Assembly (NCBI RefSeq): GCF_900129325.1 | Contig: NZ_FQUP01000001.1 | Span: forward strand, 806,001 to 870,000 | Source of the DNA: Kaistia soli DSM 19436 | GTDB taxonomy: Bacteria; Pseudomonadota; Alphaproteobacteria; Rhizobiales; Kaistiaceae | DNA: 64,000 nucleotides | Reading direction: 5' to 3' | Shown here: one piece after another, positions 5,889 through 12,948 of the stretch | Numbering within the stretch: position 1 is the first letter of the stretch | Layout: each line of letters opens with the position of its first letter | Program-made: the position numbers and the translations under genes | The notes under the pieces: generated by a model | Seen by the model: only the letters and a program-made list of their open reading frames with translations | Databases searched by the model: none | Told to the model about the DNA's origin: nothing

Positions 5889-6689
5889 ATGGCGACGCCG
5901 CTGATTGAGGCCAGAAATCTCTCCGTGCGGTTTGGCGTCGGCCGGCTCACGGTCGCGGCGCTCGACGATGTTTCGTTTACGCTGGCGCCCGGTGAATCCC
6001 TCGGCCTCGTCGGCGAGAGCGGGTCAGGCAAATCGACGGTGCTGCGTGCCTTGACTGGCCTCGCGCCGCTCTCGGGCGGCAGCTTGAAGCTCGGCGGCGT
6101 GGCGGTTCCGACACCAAGGCGGATGAATTTCTTCACCGCCGTGCAGATGGTGTTCCAGGACCCCTATGCCTCGCTGCATCCGCGCCACACGGTCGACCAG
6201 ATCCTTGCCGAACCGCTCGCGATCCATCGCATTCCCCACGCCGAGACGCGCATCGTGGCGGCGCTCAGGGAAGTCGGGCTCGGGCCGTCCTACCGCTTTC
6301 GCTATCCGCATCAGCTCTCCGGCGGGCAGCGCCAGCGCATCGCGATCGCGCGTGCCCTGATCCTCCGTCCGAAGGTCGTGCTGCTGGACGAACCCACCTC
6401 AGCGCTCGATGCCTCCGTACAAGCCGAGATCCTCAATCTGCTGGAGGATCTCCGCCGCGCCTTTGGCCTCGCCTATATCCTGGTCAGCCACGACCTTGCC
6501 GTGGTGGCGCATCTCTGCGAGCGGCTGATCGTACTGCGCCAGGGCCGCATGATCGAGGAGACGACGGCCGGGGCGCTCCGCGACGGCTCGGTCAAGACCG
6601 ACTACACGCGGGCGATGCTCGCGGCCAGCGGGGGGTTCACGCGCGTGGGTCCGACCGCTCCCCCTACTGCTCCTCTCCGAAATACTTGA
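5889..6689 (+). CDS. ABC transporter ATP-binding protein, DppF/OppF type
   Basis: A 266-residue second ATPase of the importer: Walker A GESGSGKS, Q-loop region MVFQDPYASLHPRHTV, signature LSGGQRQR, Walker B VVLLDEPTSALD and switch histidine VSHDLAVV. The 'DPYASLHPR' string is characteristic of DppF/OppF. It starts 2 bp after the first ATPase and closes the operon. Its last 26 nt overlap, tail to tail, the 3' end of the channel-like gene on the other strand, so the two messages are complementary at their ends. No terminator hairpin is visible inside the overlap. Confidence 0.93.
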   Translation: MATPLIEARNLSVRFGVGRLTVAALDDVSFTLAPGESLGLVGESGSGKSTVLRALTGLAPLSGGSLKLGGVAVPTPRRMNFFTAVQMVFQDPYASLHPRHTVDQILAEPLAIHRIPHAETRIVAALREVGLGPSYRFRYPHQLSGGQRQRIAIARALILRPKVVLLDEPTSALDASVQAEILNLLEDLRRAFGLAYILVSHDLAVVAHLCERLIVLRQGRMIEETTAGALRDGSVKTDYTRAMLAASGGFTRVGPTAPPTAPLRNT

Positions 6690-7944
6690 CGCGCAATTTG
6701 TCGATCTCGTCATGCTCCTCGGAGGACAGCAATTCGATGGTCACCGGGCGGCGCAAGATGCTGTTCTGCGGCGTACCAAAGGCATATTTGCTGGGCTCGA
6801 AGCGCGGGCCGACCAGCCGCACATCGGCGCGCGGATGGCTATGGATATAATATTGCAGCACCGGGCCATCCTCGATGATGGCGTCGATATCCTCGGCCTC
6901 CAGCGCCGCGACCGCCTCCTCAAGCGTAAGGAAAGTCACATTGCGCATGCCCTGCTCGCGGACGAAATCGTTGGAGACGGTGTCCTTGAGCACGCCGATC
7001 GTGCGGCCTTCGAGGTCGTCGATGTTGTGGATATTGTTGGCGGCCGAGAGCGTCGCCATGACGGTCGTCACCGACGAGGTGACATAGGCGATGACGGCGA
7101 CGCCAGCCATCAGCCAGATGCCCTGCCATATACGGCCGATCCAGCCGAACAGGTTCTTGCGCGCCGCCGGCTTGCCGGTCGTCGCGATCTGCATCACCGT
7201 ATAGAAGCTGTCCGCGAAGCCATCCCGCCAGCGCTTTGGAAAGGCGCTGTCGAAATGGCGATCGAACAATGTCATCAGCGCTGTCGCCAGCAGGAGGACC
7301 AGTCCGATCCGTGCATAGGTGGTGAGAAAACCGGCATCGCGCAGTTCACCGATCACGTCCAAGACGCTGGCATGGCTTCGCTCATTGATCATGATCCGAA
7401 GCCCGGCATCGAACCATGGCTGGGTGAAGTCGATCCGCCGCGCCCGGCTCTCGTTGACGGTGATATTGGAAACCGCAATGTCGATCTGGCCATCATGGGC
7501 GGCCTTGATGACGGCGCCGACGGTCGGGAATTCCTGATAGGTGAATGTCCGCTTCAAATCCGCGGCAAGGCTCTCCCACAGGTCGATCGCCATGCCGGTG
7601 TATTTGCCGCCGCGCTTCATCACGAAGGGCGCGCTCAGATGAACGCCGACCCGGATCGGCCGCTGCGGACCCGCGACGGCTTCCTCGCCGTCGCCCACCC
7701 CGGCCTGCGCCTCATCGGCGGGGACGGCCGGCTCGGGAACGGCCTCTTGGACGGGTTCTGTCGCCGGCGGTGCCACCAACGGGGGCGTGACAGGCTGCGG
7801 ATCGGCGGTCAGCGGCTTTGCCGCTGCCGCCGGGGGCTTCGCGGGAGCCGGCTCCTGAGCCTCGCTTGATCCGGACGCGACCGCGCAGGCGAGGACGAAG
7901 CCCAGGAGTGCGGCAACGCATGCCAGTCGCCGGACGAAATTCAT
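6664..7944 (-). CDS. Glutamate-receptor-like periplasmic-binding/ion-channel protein
   Basis: About 426 residues from the ATG at 7944 (MNFVRRLACVAALLGFVLAC, a signal peptide). Order: signal peptide, a proline/alanine-rich linker of about 60 residues, lobe 1 of a family-3 solute-binding fold (IRVGVHLSAPFVM... DIAVSNITVNESRARRIDFT), then an inserted membrane unit, then the second half of the binding fold (DDLEGRTIGVLKDTVSND... SILRRPVTIELL). The membrane unit has a first helix (IGLVLLLATALMTLF), a re-entrant pore-like segment (FYTVMQIATTGK) and a second helix (WLMAGVAVIAYVTSSVTTVM). This bipartite architecture is that of prokaryotic ionotropic glutamate receptors (GluR0-like). The ligand-binding Arg of the 'ITVNESRARR' strand is present; the K+-channel filter GYG is not. 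Longer starts at 7956 or 7986 are possible; 7944 gives the cleanest signal peptide. Confidence 0.8.
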   Translation of the reverse strand: MNFVRRLACVAALLGFVLACAVASGSSEAQEPAPAKPPAAAAKPLTADPQPVTPPLVAPPATEPVQEAVPEPAVPADEAQAGVGDGEEAVAGPQRPIRVGVHLSAPFVMKRGGKYTGMAIDLWESLAADLKRTFTYQEFPTVGAVIKAAHDGQIDIAVSNITVNESRARRIDFTQPWFDAGLRIMINERSHASVLDVIGELRDAGFLTTYARIGLVLLLATALMTLFDRHFDSAFPKRWRDGFADSFYTVMQIATTGKPAARKNLFGWIGRIWQGIWLMAGVAVIAYVTSSVTTVMATLSAANNIHNIDDLEGRTIGVLKDTVSNDFVREQGMRNVTFLTLEEAVAALEAEDIDAIIEDGPVLQYYIHSHPRADVRLVGPRFEPSKYAFGTPQNSILRRPVTIELLSSEEHDEIDKLRVKYFGEEQ

Positions 7945-7990
7945 TTCCCTGCTCATCCTCTCAAAATCGGGCCACCACCGCGACATCGCA

Positions 7991-9040
7991 TCAGCCGATG
8001 GTTCGTTCCAGCAGGCTCAGCCAGTTTTCGCTGCCGAGCTTAGCGAGCAGCGCCTCGTCATAGCCGTGAGCCCGCATGGCTCCGACGAGGCTGGGCAGGC
8101 CGGCGGCGGTGCCGATCTCGGCAGGGATCAGCGCCCCGTCGAAATCCGAGCCGAAGCCGACTCGGTCCTCGCCGACCCGTTCGATGAGATAGTCGAGATG
8201 GCGCAGCATCGTGTCGAGACCAGTGTCGGTGCGCATGCGTCCGTCCGGCCGCAGGAAGCAGGTCGCGAAATTGAGGCCGACCATGCCGTCGCTGTCGCGG
8301 ATGGCGGCGAGCTGGCGGTCGGTCAGGTTGCGGGCCGAAGGCGTGATGGCGTGGGCATTCGAATGGGTCGCGACCAGCGGCGCCTTGGAGAGGCGTGCGA
8401 CGTCCCAGAAGCCGGCCTCGTTCAGATGCGACAGATCGATGAGGATCCGCAGCGCATTGCAGGCCGCGACGAGGCGTTCGCCTGCCTCAGTGAGGCCGGG
8501 GCCGGTGTCGGGCGAGCCGGGGAAACGGAACGGAACGCCGTGCCCGAACACCGTCGGACGGCTCCAGACCGGGCCGATCGAGCGGAGGCCGGCGGCGTGG
8601 AGCACATAGAGCATCTCAAGTTCCGGATCGATCGCTTCGGCGCCCTCTATATGCAGCACGGTCGCCAGCGCGCCGCGCGCGATTGCCGCTCGGATCTCGG
8701 AGGTATCACGGCAGATCGCGACCTCGCCGGCCGATTCCCGCTCGATACGCAAGAGCAGCGCGATCATCGCGAGCGTCGCCTCCCGGGCCTCGTTCATCGG
8801 CAGCATGCCGGGCAGCGGCACGTCATAGGACGCGCCCATCATCTGGTCGGCATAGGCAAACCCGCGGGCAGGCGGGGAGAAGACCGCGAAGAGACCGCCG
8901 ACCATGCCGCCGGCCCGCGCGCGCGGCAGATCGAGCTGGCCATCCTCGGTGCCATCGAGGAACGCGCGGGCCGCGCCCTCGCGCCGCACGAGCCGCAGCA
9001 GCACGTCATTATGGCCGTCGAAGATCGGCAGAAGCGTCAT
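7991..9040 (-). CDS. Membrane dipeptidase (peptidase M19) family
   Basis: A 349-residue dinuclear-metal amidohydrolase. The metal-binding HxD is at the N-terminus (FDGHNDVLLRL, residues 8-10), followed by the bridging Glu in 'LHIEGAEAI', histidines in 'DLSHLNE' and 'THSNAHAI', and the C-terminal 'GFGSDFDG'. The family hydrolyses dipeptides, often D-amino-acid-containing, or related amides. The start at 9040 is chosen because AGAGAG lies just upstream; the longer reading to 9265 is out-of-gene sequence inside livM. It is the last gene of a leftward run with four HAAT-type transporter genes, which suggests it cleaves the imported compound or a product of it. Confidence 0.9.
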   Translation of the reverse strand: MTLLPIFDGHNDVLLRLVRREGAARAFLDGTEDGQLDLPRARAGGMVGGLFAVFSPPARGFAYADQMMGASYDVPLPGMLPMNEAREATLAMIALLLRIERESAGEVAICRDTSEIRAAIARGALATVLHIEGAEAIDPELEMLYVLHAAGLRSIGPVWSRPTVFGHGVPFRFPGSPDTGPGLTEAGERLVAACNALRILIDLSHLNEAGFWDVARLSKAPLVATHSNAHAITPSARNLTDRQLAAIRDSDGMVGLNFATCFLRPDGRMRTDTGLDTMLRHLDYLIERVGEDRVGFGSDFDGALIPAEIGTAAGLPSLVGAMRAHGYDEALLAKLGSENWLSLLERTIG

Positions 9041-9051
9041 GTCTCTCTCTT

Positions 9052-10041
9052 TCAATCGCGGACGGGCTCGTGCGGGGACGTGCTTTCGCCGGCGAGGGCC
9101 TCGACATCGCGCGAGACGGTCGCCCGCTCGCCGACAAGGCCGCGCGGACGAACCAGCAGGATAGCAGCCAGCGCCACGCCGATCGCAACGATCTGCAAGG
9201 CGGCAGCGCGCGCCTGGAAGGCCGGCGCGACGAATGTTCCGACCGCGAGGCTCGACAGACTCCACAATGCCCAGACGATCACGGCGCCGATGAGTGCGCC
9301 GCGATTATTGCCGGAGCCGCCGACGATCAGCATCGCCCAGACCTGGAAGGTCAGGATCGACAGATAGTTGTCCGGCGCGATGAAACCAATGAAATGCGCC
9401 TGCATGGCCCCGGCAAGGCCCATGATGGCGCCGCCGAGCGCGAAGGCCTGCAGGCGGTGGAAATTGACGTTCTTGCCGAGCGATGCCGCAGCGGCCTCGT
9501 CCTCGCGGATGGCGCGCAGCACGCGCCCCCAGGGGCTGCGGGTCAGCGTTTCGAGGATCAGGAAGAGGCCGAGCACCACGAAGCCGGTCAGCGCCAGATT
9601 GGCGGCGTTGAAGGCGATCGGCGTCTCGGCAAGGCTCGAAAACGGCCGCGGGATGAAGGCGATGCCAAACGGGCCGCCGGTCAGCGCCGTCGCGTTCAAC
9701 GCGATGACCTGGATCGTGACCGCGATCCCGAACGTCGTCATCGCGAGGTAGTCGGCACGAAGACGCAGCGTCGCGAGCCCAACCAGCGCGGCCGCTGCGC
9801 CGGCGACCAGCATCGCGGCGAGCCATCCGGCAAGGATCGGCCAGCCGAAGCCGCCGATCCGGTCGGCGGCATCGGGCGTCGTCAGGATGGCGGAGACATA
9901 GGCACCGATCGCCGCGAAGCCGGCGACGCCGACATTGAACAGGCCCGTCTGGCCCCATTGCACATTGAGGCCAAGGCAGAGCACGCCGAAGATGAGCGCG
10001 TTGACGAGAAAGAAGGCGCCATAGCCGAGAAGATCGATCAT
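9052..10041 (-). CDS. Branched-chain-amino-acid-type ABC permease, LivM family
   Basis: A 329-residue inner-membrane permease. It starts MIDLLGYGAFFLVNAL and shows LivM landmarks: 'NVQWGQTGLFNVG', 'RLRADYLAMTTFG', 'NYLSILTFQVWAMLIVGG' and 'GALIGAVI'. About ten hydrophobic segments are present. The ATG at 10041 overlaps the livH-type stop by 4 bp; the apparent extension upstream to 10821 is antisense reading of the neighbour. The C-terminal tail (about residues 295-329) is unusually long and polar. It pairs with the LivH-type protein for hydrophobic amino-acid-type (HAAT) uptake, though the actual ligand is unknown. Confidence 0.92.
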   Translation of the reverse strand: MIDLLGYGAFFLVNALIFGVLCLGLNVQWGQTGLFNVGVAGFAAIGAYVSAILTTPDAADRIGGFGWPILAGWLAAMLVAGAAAALVGLATLRLRADYLAMTTFGIAVTIQVIALNATALTGGPFGIAFIPRPFSSLAETPIAFNAANLALTGFVVLGLFLILETLTRSPWGRVLRAIREDEAAAASLGKNVNFHRLQAFALGGAIMGLAGAMQAHFIGFIAPDNYLSILTFQVWAMLIVGGSGNNRGALIGAVIVWALWSLSSLAVGTFVAPAFQARAAALQIVAIGVALAAILLVRPRGLVGERATVSRDVEALAGESTSPHEPVRD

Positions 10042-10946
10042 CCCTCGCGAACTCCGAAGAGGCCACGCGGGCGCACCAGCAGCATCGCGATGAGCAGCAC
10101 GAAGGCAACGGCGGAGCGATATTCCGAGCCGATCAGCTGCACGGCGCCCGCCTCGGCGACGCCGACGATGAGGCCGCCGATGATGGCGCCCCAGACGCTG
10201 CCGATGCCGCCGAGAATCGCGGCGGCAAAGAGCGGCAGCAGCAGGTCGAATCCCATCTGCGGCCTGATCTGCACCGTGAGGCCCAGCATGATGCCCGAGA
10301 CACAGGCGAGCGCCCCGCCGATCAGCCAGGTGGCGCGGATGACGGCGGCGACGTCGATGCCGACGACGCGGGCGAGCGCCGGATTCTCGCTCACCGCCCG
10401 CATCGAACGGCCGATATGGGTGCGCGTCAGCAGAAGATGCATCGCGATGACGACGACGAGGGCGAGGCCCATCATCGCCGCCTGATCCGGCGTCACGCGG
10501 ATGCCAAGGCCGACCGGGATGGCGATCTGGATGGCGCGGCTGAAATAGGCCGGCTCGGAGGTGAACAGGAACTCCAGCATCGCCCGCAGCGCCAGCGACG
10601 CGCCGAAGCTCGCGATGACCATGACGATGCCATGGCCCGTCCGCCGCAACGGCTTGAACAGGGCCGCGTCGAGGAGGAGTGCCAGCAGCCCGGTCAGCGC
10701 CATGGCGAGGAGCCCGCCAACGATGAGCGGCCAGCCGAACGAAAACGGCATGAAACGCGCCGCCGGGCCAATCCAGCCGGTCAGCGCACCGACGGTGCCG
10801 AGCGCCAGATAGGCCCCCCAAGAGATGAAGTCGCCATGCGTGAAGTTCGAGAAGCGCAGGATCGAGTAGGTCAGCGTCAGCCCGACGGCGCCGAGCCCGA
10901 TCAGCGCGCCGGCAAAGAGACCATCGGCGAGGAATTGCAGGCTCAT
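10038..10946 (-). CDS. Branched-chain-amino-acid-type ABC permease, LivH family
   Basis: A 302-residue permease. The N-terminus 'LQFLADGLFAGALIGLGAVGLTLTYSILRFSNFTHGD' region and 'RAVSENPALARVVGIDV' are hallmark LivH segments, and the C-terminus ends RPRGLFGVREG, as usual. It overlaps the upstream livF-type gene and the downstream livM-type gene by 4 bp each, so translation of the whole run is coupled. It provides one half of the membrane channel. Confidence 0.93.
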   Translation of the reverse strand: MSLQFLADGLFAGALIGLGAVGLTLTYSILRFSNFTHGDFISWGAYLALGTVGALTGWIGPAARFMPFSFGWPLIVGGLLAMALTGLLALLLDAALFKPLRRTGHGIVMVIASFGASLALRAMLEFLFTSEPAYFSRAIQIAIPVGLGIRVTPDQAAMMGLALVVVIAMHLLLTRTHIGRSMRAVSENPALARVVGIDVAAVIRATWLIGGALACVSGIMLGLTVQIRPQMGFDLLLPLFAAAILGGIGSVWGAIIGGLIVGVAEAGAVQLIGSEYRSAVAFVLLIAMLLVRPRGLFGVREG

Positions 10947-11701
10947 GGCGCGCTCCTCCCCACTACGCTGGCATCGGCGCCGCCAAGGCCGAGATAATGC
11001 TCGGCGATATCGGGATCGGCCGCGAGCGCCGCCGCGGAACCTTCATGGCGGTTGCGGCCATCGGCCAGGATATAGGCGCGGTCGGCGATCGCGAGCGCAG
11101 CGCGGGCGTTCTGCTCGACCATCAGGATCGTGACGCCACTGGCGCGGATTTCCACCAGCTTGGCGAAGACGTCGCGGACCAATTTCGGCGAAAGCCCGGC
11201 CGAGGGCTCGTCGAGCATCAGCACGTGCGGCTCGATCATCAGCGCGCGGGCGACGGCCAGCATCTGGCGCTGCCCACCGGAAAGGCGTCCGGCGGCGAGC
11301 CCGCGCTGGCGGGCAAGGTCCGGGAAAAGCTCCAACATCGCGGCGAGGCGCGCGGCGCGGACGGACGCTGGCGCGACATGGCCCGCGAGGACGAGATTTT
11401 CCTCGACGCTCATGGTGGTGAACACATTCTCGGTCTGCGGCACGAAGGCGAGGCCGAGGCGCACCATCCTGTGCGCGGCCGTCTGCGTGATCTCGGCACC
11501 GGCGAGCGTCACGGTGCCGCGCGCGATCGGGACGAGACCGGCGATCGCTTTCATCAGGGTCGACTTTCCGGCCCCGTTCGGACCGAGCAGCACGACGATC
11601 TCGCCGCGGCCGACGGTGACGCTGGCGCCCTTGACGATCGGCAGGCCCGGCTCATAGCCGGCCTCGATCCCGTGCGCGACGAGGGCAGGAACCCCTGTCA
11701 T
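10943..11701 (-). CDS. HAAT-family ABC ATP-binding protein, LivF type
   Basis: A 252-residue ATPase: Walker A GPNGAGKST (about residue 39), signature LSGGQRQML, Walker B VLMLDEPSAGLSP and switch histidine replaced by the LivF-typical 'MVEQNARAAL', which has Gln in place of His. The 'FVPQTENVFTTMSVEENL' Q-loop region is also LivF-like. Both ends overlap neighbours by 4 bp. Confidence 0.93.
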   Translation of the reverse strand: MTGVPALVAHGIEAGYEPGLPIVKGASVTVGRGEIVVLLGPNGAGKSTLMKAIAGLVPIARGTVTLAGAEITQTAAHRMVRLGLAFVPQTENVFTTMSVEENLVLAGHVAPASVRAARLAAMLELFPDLARQRGLAAGRLSGGQRQMLAVARALMIEPHVLMLDEPSAGLSPKLVRDVFAKLVEIRASGVTILMVEQNARAALAIADRAYILADGRNRHEGSAAALAADPDIAEHYLGLGGADASVVGRSAP

Positions 11702-12456
11702 GCCACAGCCCCGCCGAGATAGGCGTCGACGACGCGGGGATCGCGCGCCATGACCTCAGGCGCGCCACGGCCGAGCACGCGCCCCTCGGCCATCACGATC
11801 ACCTCGCCGCAGAGGCGCGCGACGAGATCCATATTGTGCTCGATGATCAGGAAGGTGATGCCGGTGCGGTTGATAGCTTCGATCCGCGCCATGATGATTT
11901 CCAGCAGCGCCGGATTGACGCCGGCCGCCGGCTCGTCGAGCAGGATCAGCCTCGGCTCGGCCATCAGCACGCGGGCGAGTTCCAGCAGCTTGCGCTGCCC
12001 GCCGGACAGCGCCTTGGCCGGCAGCCGCTCGACCTTGGCGAGATCGACGAAGGCGACGATCTCGCGGGCCCGCGCGATGTTGGCCTGTTCCTGCCGACGC
12101 ACCGAAGCGCGCGCGAAGAGGTTCGCGAGCATGCGCTCGCCGGGCTGCGCCCGCGCGGCGACGAGCACGTTTTCCAGCACCGACATCTCGCCAAAGGGCT
12201 TCGGAATCTGAAAGGTGCGGGCGAGACCCGCGGCGACGCGCCGGTGCGCCGGCTCATGTTCGATCGCCCGGCCGCCGAGGCGGATCGCGCCGGCGGTCGG
12301 CTGCAAGGTGCCGGCGATCAGGTTGAAAGTCGTGGTTTTGCCGGCGCCGTTCGGCCCGATGAGCCCGACGATCGCTCCGGCGGGAACGGCGAAGCTTACA
12401 TCGTCGACCGCGCGGAAGCCGTCGAAGGACTTGGAAACCGATTGCACTTCGAGCAT
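11698..12456 (-). CDS. HAAT-family ABC ATP-binding protein, LivG type
   Basis: A 252-residue ATPase starting MLEVQSVSKSFDGFRAVDDV. Walker A is GPNGAGKTT, signature LSGGQRKLLEL, Walker B LILLDEPAAGVNP, with 'IEHNMDLVARLC' after it (LivG keeps the switch His). The start at 12456 is chosen because the domain begins there; further upstream the frame runs through the intergenic region and the antisense of the next gene. It is the first gene of the leftward transporter operon and faces the TIGR04076 gene across a 138-bp divergent promoter region. Confidence 0.93.
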   Translation of the reverse strand: MLEVQSVSKSFDGFRAVDDVSFAVPAGAIVGLIGPNGAGKTTTFNLIAGTLQPTAGAIRLGGRAIEHEPAHRRVAAGLARTFQIPKPFGEMSVLENVLVAARAQPGERMLANLFARASVRRQEQANIARAREIVAFVDLAKVERLPAKALSGGQRKLLELARVLMAEPRLILLDEPAAGVNPALLEIIMARIEAINRTGITFLIIEHNMDLVARLCGEVIVMAEGRVLGRGAPEVMARDPRVVDAYLGGAVA

Positions 12457-12487
12457 GCGTGCGCCAGACCAGAGGCGGGAGCGTGGC

Positions 12488-12502
12488 GGGCCGGTCCGGC
12501 CC
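12488..12502. promoter_or_regulatory. GC-rich palindrome between divergent operons
   Basis: GGGCCGG-T-CCGGCCC is a perfect 7+7 bp inverted repeat 32 bp from the livG-type start and 93 bp from the TIGR04076 start. Its position in the only non-coding segment between the two wings of the locus makes it a candidate operator, but short GC palindromes arise easily at this base composition. Confidence 0.3.
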
Positions 12503-12594
12503 CTCGCGTTCCCTTCTACATGGCCCGGCCCAACTCTCAAGGGCCCAATCGCCAGGCTGCCTTGCCAGCCGGCGATCAGACGATGCGGGGAGCG

Positions 12595-12948
12595 ATGAGC
12601 GGGGCGGCCGACGATCACTTCGAACTTTACGACCTCCGCGTCGAAGTCGTGGCGCCGCCGGGCGCCCGGCTCTATTGCGGCGCCGCGGTCGGAGACTTTT
12701 TCGAGCTGCACGGCGAGATGCTGCATCTGCCCCCGGGGCAAGGCCTCTCTATCTATTCGCTTGCCTCGGTGCTGCCCCTGCTCGCCGCCAAGCAGCGGCC
12801 GACGCATCCCAATGACTGGATGACGAGCGACGCCGAAATCGCTTGCCCGGACCCCAATTGCCCCTCGCGCCTTCGCATCACGCGCCTTGGCCTTCGCCGC
12901 TTCTCGCATGCGGCGACCACGGCCGTGCCACTGCCGAAGGCCGAATGA
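12595..12948 (+). CDS. TIGR04076 family protein
   Basis: A 117-residue protein. Seen: a short variable N-terminus, then 'YDLRVEVV', 'GDFFELHGEMLHLPPG', 'SIYSLASVLPLLAAKQR', 'NDWM' and a paired-cysteine segment 'IACPDPNCPSRLRITR'. This order matches the small TIGR04076 family, whose function is not established; the CxxxxxC pair could bind a metal. The start at 12595 has GGGGAG just upstream; an ATG at 12583 is an alternative. The stop overlaps the next gene's ATG by 4 bp, placing it first in the rightward operon of the catabolic locus. Confidence 0.8.
   Translation: MSGAADDHFELYDLRVEVVAPPGARLYCGAAVGDFFELHGEMLHLPPGQGLSIYSLASVLPLLAAKQRPTHPNDWMTSDAEIACPDPNCPSRLRITRLGLRRFSHAATTAVPLPKAE

Follow-up and report, generated by a model that had tools for sequence, protein, structure and literature searches.

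A prokaryotic ionotropic glutamate receptor-type family with a conserved, basic filter loop in place of the GYG potassium filter

Can a protein that is built like the prokaryotic receptor GluR0 be a ligand-gated channel when its pore loop lacks the GYG potassium filter? This question is raised by a minus-strand gene in a 64,000-nucleotide stretch of Kaistia soli DSM 19436 (contig NZ_FQUP01000001.1, positions 806,001-870,000), which was analysed at its full length and is called the window here. The original prediction had left the choice between such a channel and a binding protein that signals without conducting. We find that its layout, its binding residues and the homology of its pore mark the protein as an ionotropic glutamate receptor (iGluR), and that it is not a K+ channel of the GluR0 type. 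With a probability of roughly 0.58 we take it to be an amino-acid-gated prokaryotic channel that is not K+-selective and would be weakly selective for monovalent cations.

The open reading frame (6664-7986) comprises 440 amino acids. Its start most likely lies at Met15 (position 7944), as originally placed, rather than at 7986, since Met15 is retained in L003, a relative of 85% identity, whereas Met11 is missing there. Both the signal peptide and the long Pro/Ala-rich linker of the original prediction can be read in the sequence (Table 1). They are followed by a type-3 solute-binding fold (SBP_bac_3 match to residues 111-438, E 7.4e-19) in two halves, S1 and S2, which are split by a helix, a pore helix with its loop, and a further helix (M1, P and M3); these helices are present in the single-chain structure model (mean predicted local distance difference test score 92). 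In a scan of species genomes we found 86 relatives, of which the best 80 were kept and aligned with the window protein. The resulting 81 rows stem from alpha-, beta- and gammaproteobacterial records, Synechococcus sp. SynAce01 and Gelidibacter, and the S1-M1-P-M3-S2 layout is kept across all of them, so that the split fold first described is borne out by domain match, model and alignment alike. It is hardly credible that we are dealing with an ordinary binding protein of an ATP-binding cassette (ABC) transporter, a permease fusion or a chance frame: the best NCBIfam name is indeed the glutamine-binding GlnH, under its cut-off, and ABC transporter genes flank the gene on both sides, but in the 81 rows a pore of the iGluR type divides S1 from S2 at the same place as in iGluRs. 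GlnH was rejected because M1-P-M3 interrupts the fold and the GlnH model scores 110.5 bits, short of its cut-off of 303; a plain solute-binding protein or permease was rejected because the homologues keep the iGluR-type pore unit and show no plain permease helices. Nor is the layout a product of chance, as it is kept in 81 rows and M1-P-M3 is under purifying selection relative to L003, with nonsynonymous changes (dN 0.034) far under synonymous ones (dS 0.42).

That the pore is of the iGluR type follows from several comparisons. The Pfam model Lig_chan was matched by all 54 family pore regions compared (E up to 1, best 2.3e-9), among them that of the window protein itself (E 7.6e-4), whose match over residues 228-329 lies under the curated cut-off (17.4 versus 30.8 bits). 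The plant receptor GLR3.4 was matched with an E of 5.9e-5. The predicted fold contains the helix-pore helix/loop-helix unit, and all 50 matches listed for this unit by VIA-align are pore-loop channels; pore-only Foldseek matches had E values of 0.098 or worse. R181 (Arg in 79 of the 81 rows) and D373 (Asp in all 81) align with residues of NpGluR0 from Nostoc punctiforme, to which the match in the PDB covers the binding core only. By these alignments, the pore is homologous to those of iGluRs, and the GluR0-like layout with an iGluR-type pore that the original prediction proposed has stood up; neither of the two outcomes that it had named as refuting turned up.

The filter itself has changed. 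Residues 267-278 read IATTGKPAARKN, and within residues 255-300 GYG, and with it the TVGYG signature of the K+-selective GluR0 type, occurs in none of the 81 rows; the missing GYG noted at first is thus a trait of the whole alignment. Where GluR0-type relatives have TVGYGD, the family has T[ST]G[KR], an insertion of one or two residues and then mostly SRKN. In a profile alignment of the 54 family pores with 19 GYG pores (probability 99.7), T269-T270-G271-K272 fall on T-V-G-Y, followed by a two-residue insertion and by R276 under the Asp of TVGYGD, which is invariant in 19/19 GYG pores; the gap placement is the program's choice. G271 is invariant in the 81 rows, R276 is Arg in 78, and the insertion is one residue shorter in 25. 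A Lys or Arg stands at position 272 in 64 rows, at 270 in 13, at neither in four and at both in none, i.e. at exactly one of the two in 77/81; the same rule applies to all 21 further distinct pores, which were read by eye. The 13 rows with the charge at 270 comprise 11 of a T[KR]G[ST]LP type as well as L051 and L057, so that the charge seems to have shifted position more than once. In 77/81 family rows the loop is free of acidic residues. Such a residue is present in all 24 GYG rows and all eight ATQ rows that were matched by script (fragment rows L110, L112, L137 and L138 left out), and by eye in L121 and L129, which the script did not match; an acid-free loop is not unique to the family, as it also occurs outside it in L104, L113 and L111. 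Judged by its conservation, the loop is the filter of a whole family, in which TVGY is replaced position by position, with an insertion and a change of charge.

With TVGYGD turned into T[ST]G[KR]-insertion-SRKN, selectivity for K+ is not to be expected of the pore. GluR0 conducts K+ (accessible text of PMC13099474) and its GYG relatives align with the family at the probability given above, but with GYG absent throughout and Lys or Arg in the Tyr column of 64/81 rows, K+ selectivity despite the altered filter is very improbable. The two loops expected in the cytoplasm are positively charged and the outside is slightly negative, a pattern that fits the inverted topology shown for GluR0 (same source). 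This topology alone also predicts positive residues at a cytoplasmic loop, and it thereby weakens the case for a ring of Lys/Arg that would make the ligand-gated pore permeable to anions, or let it discriminate hardly at all between anions and cations. In favour of such a ring speak the K/R found at 270 or 272 and never at both, R276 in the place of an invariant Asp, and the loop without acidic residues; the antiporters found next to some family genes (see below) carry cations, and we consider either form of this reading a distinctly unlikely outcome. A long shot, too, is the broader idea that a widespread iGluR branch has turned an inverted K+ filter positive (Tyr to Lys/Arg, Asp to Arg), with one charge per subunit at either of two positions, and thus acquired a selectivity new to iGluRs, possibly for anions.

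Alternatively, the protein could be a receptor that no longer conducts, its pore unit serving as a tetrameric transmembrane clamp that relays ligand binding. Such a role would match the lost K+ filter and the basic residues in the loop, a gene that mostly stands alone and has no family-wide neighbour, and its patchy presence (3 of 14 genomes of the host genus, 4 of 28 of the host family). However, conservation is highest in the pore helix and in M3 (weighted majority frequency 0.76 each, compared with 0.71 for the loop, 0.63 for S1 and 0.58 for S2), and polar M3 residues are kept (T303 in 79/81, S305 in 78/81, T307 in 78/81). Signal peptide and linker (residues 15-107) share 67% identity with L003 (dN 0.21, dS 0.48). 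The stronger conservation of the pore relative to the ligand domain and the low dN/dS of M1-P-M3 speak against decay; furthermore, the protein has no cytoplasmic signalling domain, and one branch has the antiporter as a neighbour. We therefore regard a non-conducting receptor as unlikely, though worth keeping in view. In the channel that we favour, four subunits, as suggested by the fold family, would span the inner membrane and expose their binding domains to the periplasm. The S1/S2 clamshell would be closed by an alpha-amino acid that probably resembles glutamate or glutamine, and this would pull M3 and open a conserved gate of the TSSVTSVMT type; ions would then cross the re-entrant loop, which would enter from the cytoplasm.

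With GluR0 of Synechocystis (Slr1257) and other GYG-type iGluRs the family shares the order S1-M1-P-M3-S2, the lack of an amino-terminal domain and of M4, the amino-acid-binding Arg and Asp, and the M3 gate region; besides the filter, it differs in forming a separate clade on a long stem. In a tree of 86 rows, 43 family rows (including L048 and L093, which were assigned by reading the sequence, their automatic label being 'other') lie on one side of a branch with a support of 100 and a length of 1.57 changes per column. The tree was built by a quick method and its root was not inferred, and the long stem leaves the nearest sister unsettled. In the Paracoccus denitrificans genome there is one iGluR-pore match, and it belongs to the T[ST]G[KR] family. 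One accession from this species is reportedly among those of Ger et al. The ten Group 2 channels of Ger et al. 2010 may include members of the family or not; compared at the level of topology and pore type, their published description fits it, since they share its topology and have a pore region that is not of the K+ type, with no recognised K+ filter. According to the accessible text of PMC2950845, 10 of 22 putative prokaryotic channels have P regions unlike any of known selectivity. As far as these sources extend, prokaryotic iGluRs without a K+ filter have been a known class since 2010, and the missing GYG is unusual only relative to GluR0, since the published Group 2 iGluRs also have no recognisable K+ filter. 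Plant GLR3.4 and the animal AMPA and NMDA receptors likewise have a homologous pore and binding domain and no GYG, but carry an amino-terminal domain and M4 (accessible text of PMC3483616). In plant receptors and GluR0 the +4 filter position is acidic (PMC12226733, as far as accessible); such a residue is absent in the T[ST]G[KR] family. Literature searches around prokaryotic iGluRs, of partial coverage and without the motif itself as a search term, yielded no description of a charged filter or of an antiporter link.

Among weaker-matching relatives we found filters of the TVGYGDKTP kind and similar, ATQADEMP, VVNGGFEER and MTQAGAAQ; the cyanobacterial rows with ATQADEMP form a different clade. 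Types such as MTQAGAAQ, VVNGGFEER, MTMGGFEKE and ATQADEMP all lie in clades apart from the T[ST]G[KR] family (non-GYG rows outside it: L104, L113, L098, L099, L109, L111, L100, L121, L123, L125-L128, L101, L107 and L135). Besides GYG filters, the sampled prokaryotic relatives thus hold several non-GYG types that stand apart from one another. By which route the non-selective pore of nervous-system receptors arose from an inverted K+ channel is still an open question. The T[ST]G[KR] family is large, well conserved and suited to expression and measurement: if its charged pore still conducts, the range of iGluR filter function is wider; if it does not, the iGluR fold has been put to a use other than conduction.

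In genome surveys, for which a limited number of first-look candidates was scored per genome, 23 of 398 genomes from the phylum had a match with an E of 1e-3 or better (seven of them a strong one, E 1e-45 or better), as did 26 of 244 cyanobacterial genomes (one strong); within the order, 36 of 397 genomes reached an E of 1e-30 or better. This patchy distribution resembles that of an accessory gene spread by transfer. Within its own genome the protein's sole full-length match is itself; a second match, to residues 111-200, is weak (E 0.0015).

Table 1. Features of the channel gene in the window, and examples of antiporter genes next to related genes
Feature	Position	Strand	Basis or remark
Whole coding sequence, Met15 to stop	6664..7944	-	open frame runs on to 7986; Met15 kept in L003
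Predicted signal peptide, residues 15-43	7858..7944	-	from sequence; cleavage site by eye
Pro/Ala-rich linker, residues 44-107	7666..7857	-	composition; fast-changing versus L003
S1 half of ligand-binding domain, residues 108-203	7378..7665	-	domain matches, alignment; R181 conserved
R181, expected contact of ligand alpha-carboxylate	7444..7446	-	aligned with NpGluR0 arginine; role after Ger et al. (accessible text)
M1 helix, residues 220-245	7252..7329	-	model
Pore helix, residues 253-270	7177..7230	-	model; weighted majority frequency 0.76
Filter loop, residues 271-280 (GKPAARKNLF)	7147..7176	-	model, conservation; aligned with TVGYGDK of GYG relatives
K272, conserved filter charge	7171..7173	-	aligned with Tyr of TVGYG
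M3 helix with gate-like motif AYVTSSVTTVM, residues 281-316	7039..7146	-	family alignment, model
S2 half of ligand-binding domain, residues 319-438	6673..7032	-	domain matches, alignment; D373 conserved
D373, expected contact of ligand alpha-amino group	6868..6870	-	aligned with NpGluR0 aspartate; role after Ger et al. (accessible text)
Antiporter gene examples	L068:4698-5840, L076:4709-5869, L018:4906-5838	channel's strand	nine more loci

When neighbouring open reading frames of the 80 loci and the window were clustered, no partner gene common to the family emerged; clusters besides the channel comprise at most 11 loci each, the largest being ABC-transporter genes. Directly upstream and on the same strand, 12/80 loci carry a ChaA/CaCA2-like cation/proton antiporter (Na_Ca_ex), identified by Pfam in seven of the 12 and in L173 and scoring under the NCBIfam cut-offs. 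These loci comprise every member of the T[KR]G[ST]LP type (11/11) as well as L018, which is placed separately in the tree and whose antiporter has 38% identity; L051 and L057, with Lys at 270, have no antiporter. A second set covered 31 loci (1.5-kb flanks), of which 10 repeat pores of the first set; here the antiporter is found once, in L173, the sole T[KR]G[ST]LP member of the set. It is next to none of 47 non-family iGluR-like loci (1.5-kb flanks). Because the three tree members of this subtype form one clade, its link may go back to one event, and much of the linkage may be one inherited operon. The antiporter as a neighbour points to cations.

A small membrane protein is encoded downstream of the channel in seven loci from alphaproteobacteria and Gelidibacter (e.g. 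L042:7125-7808, L071:7041-7640, L048:9235-9546); three copies checked had no Pfam match. In the window, the channel gene is preceded on the minus strand (7991-12909) by genes for a branched-chain-type ABC transporter and an M19 membrane dipeptidase; this arrangement in one direction suggests a common transcript and perhaps a peptide-derived ligand. On its other side, the channel gene converges with a plus-strand ABC ATPase gene (5889-6689), the two overlapping tail to tail by 26 bases (6664-6689).
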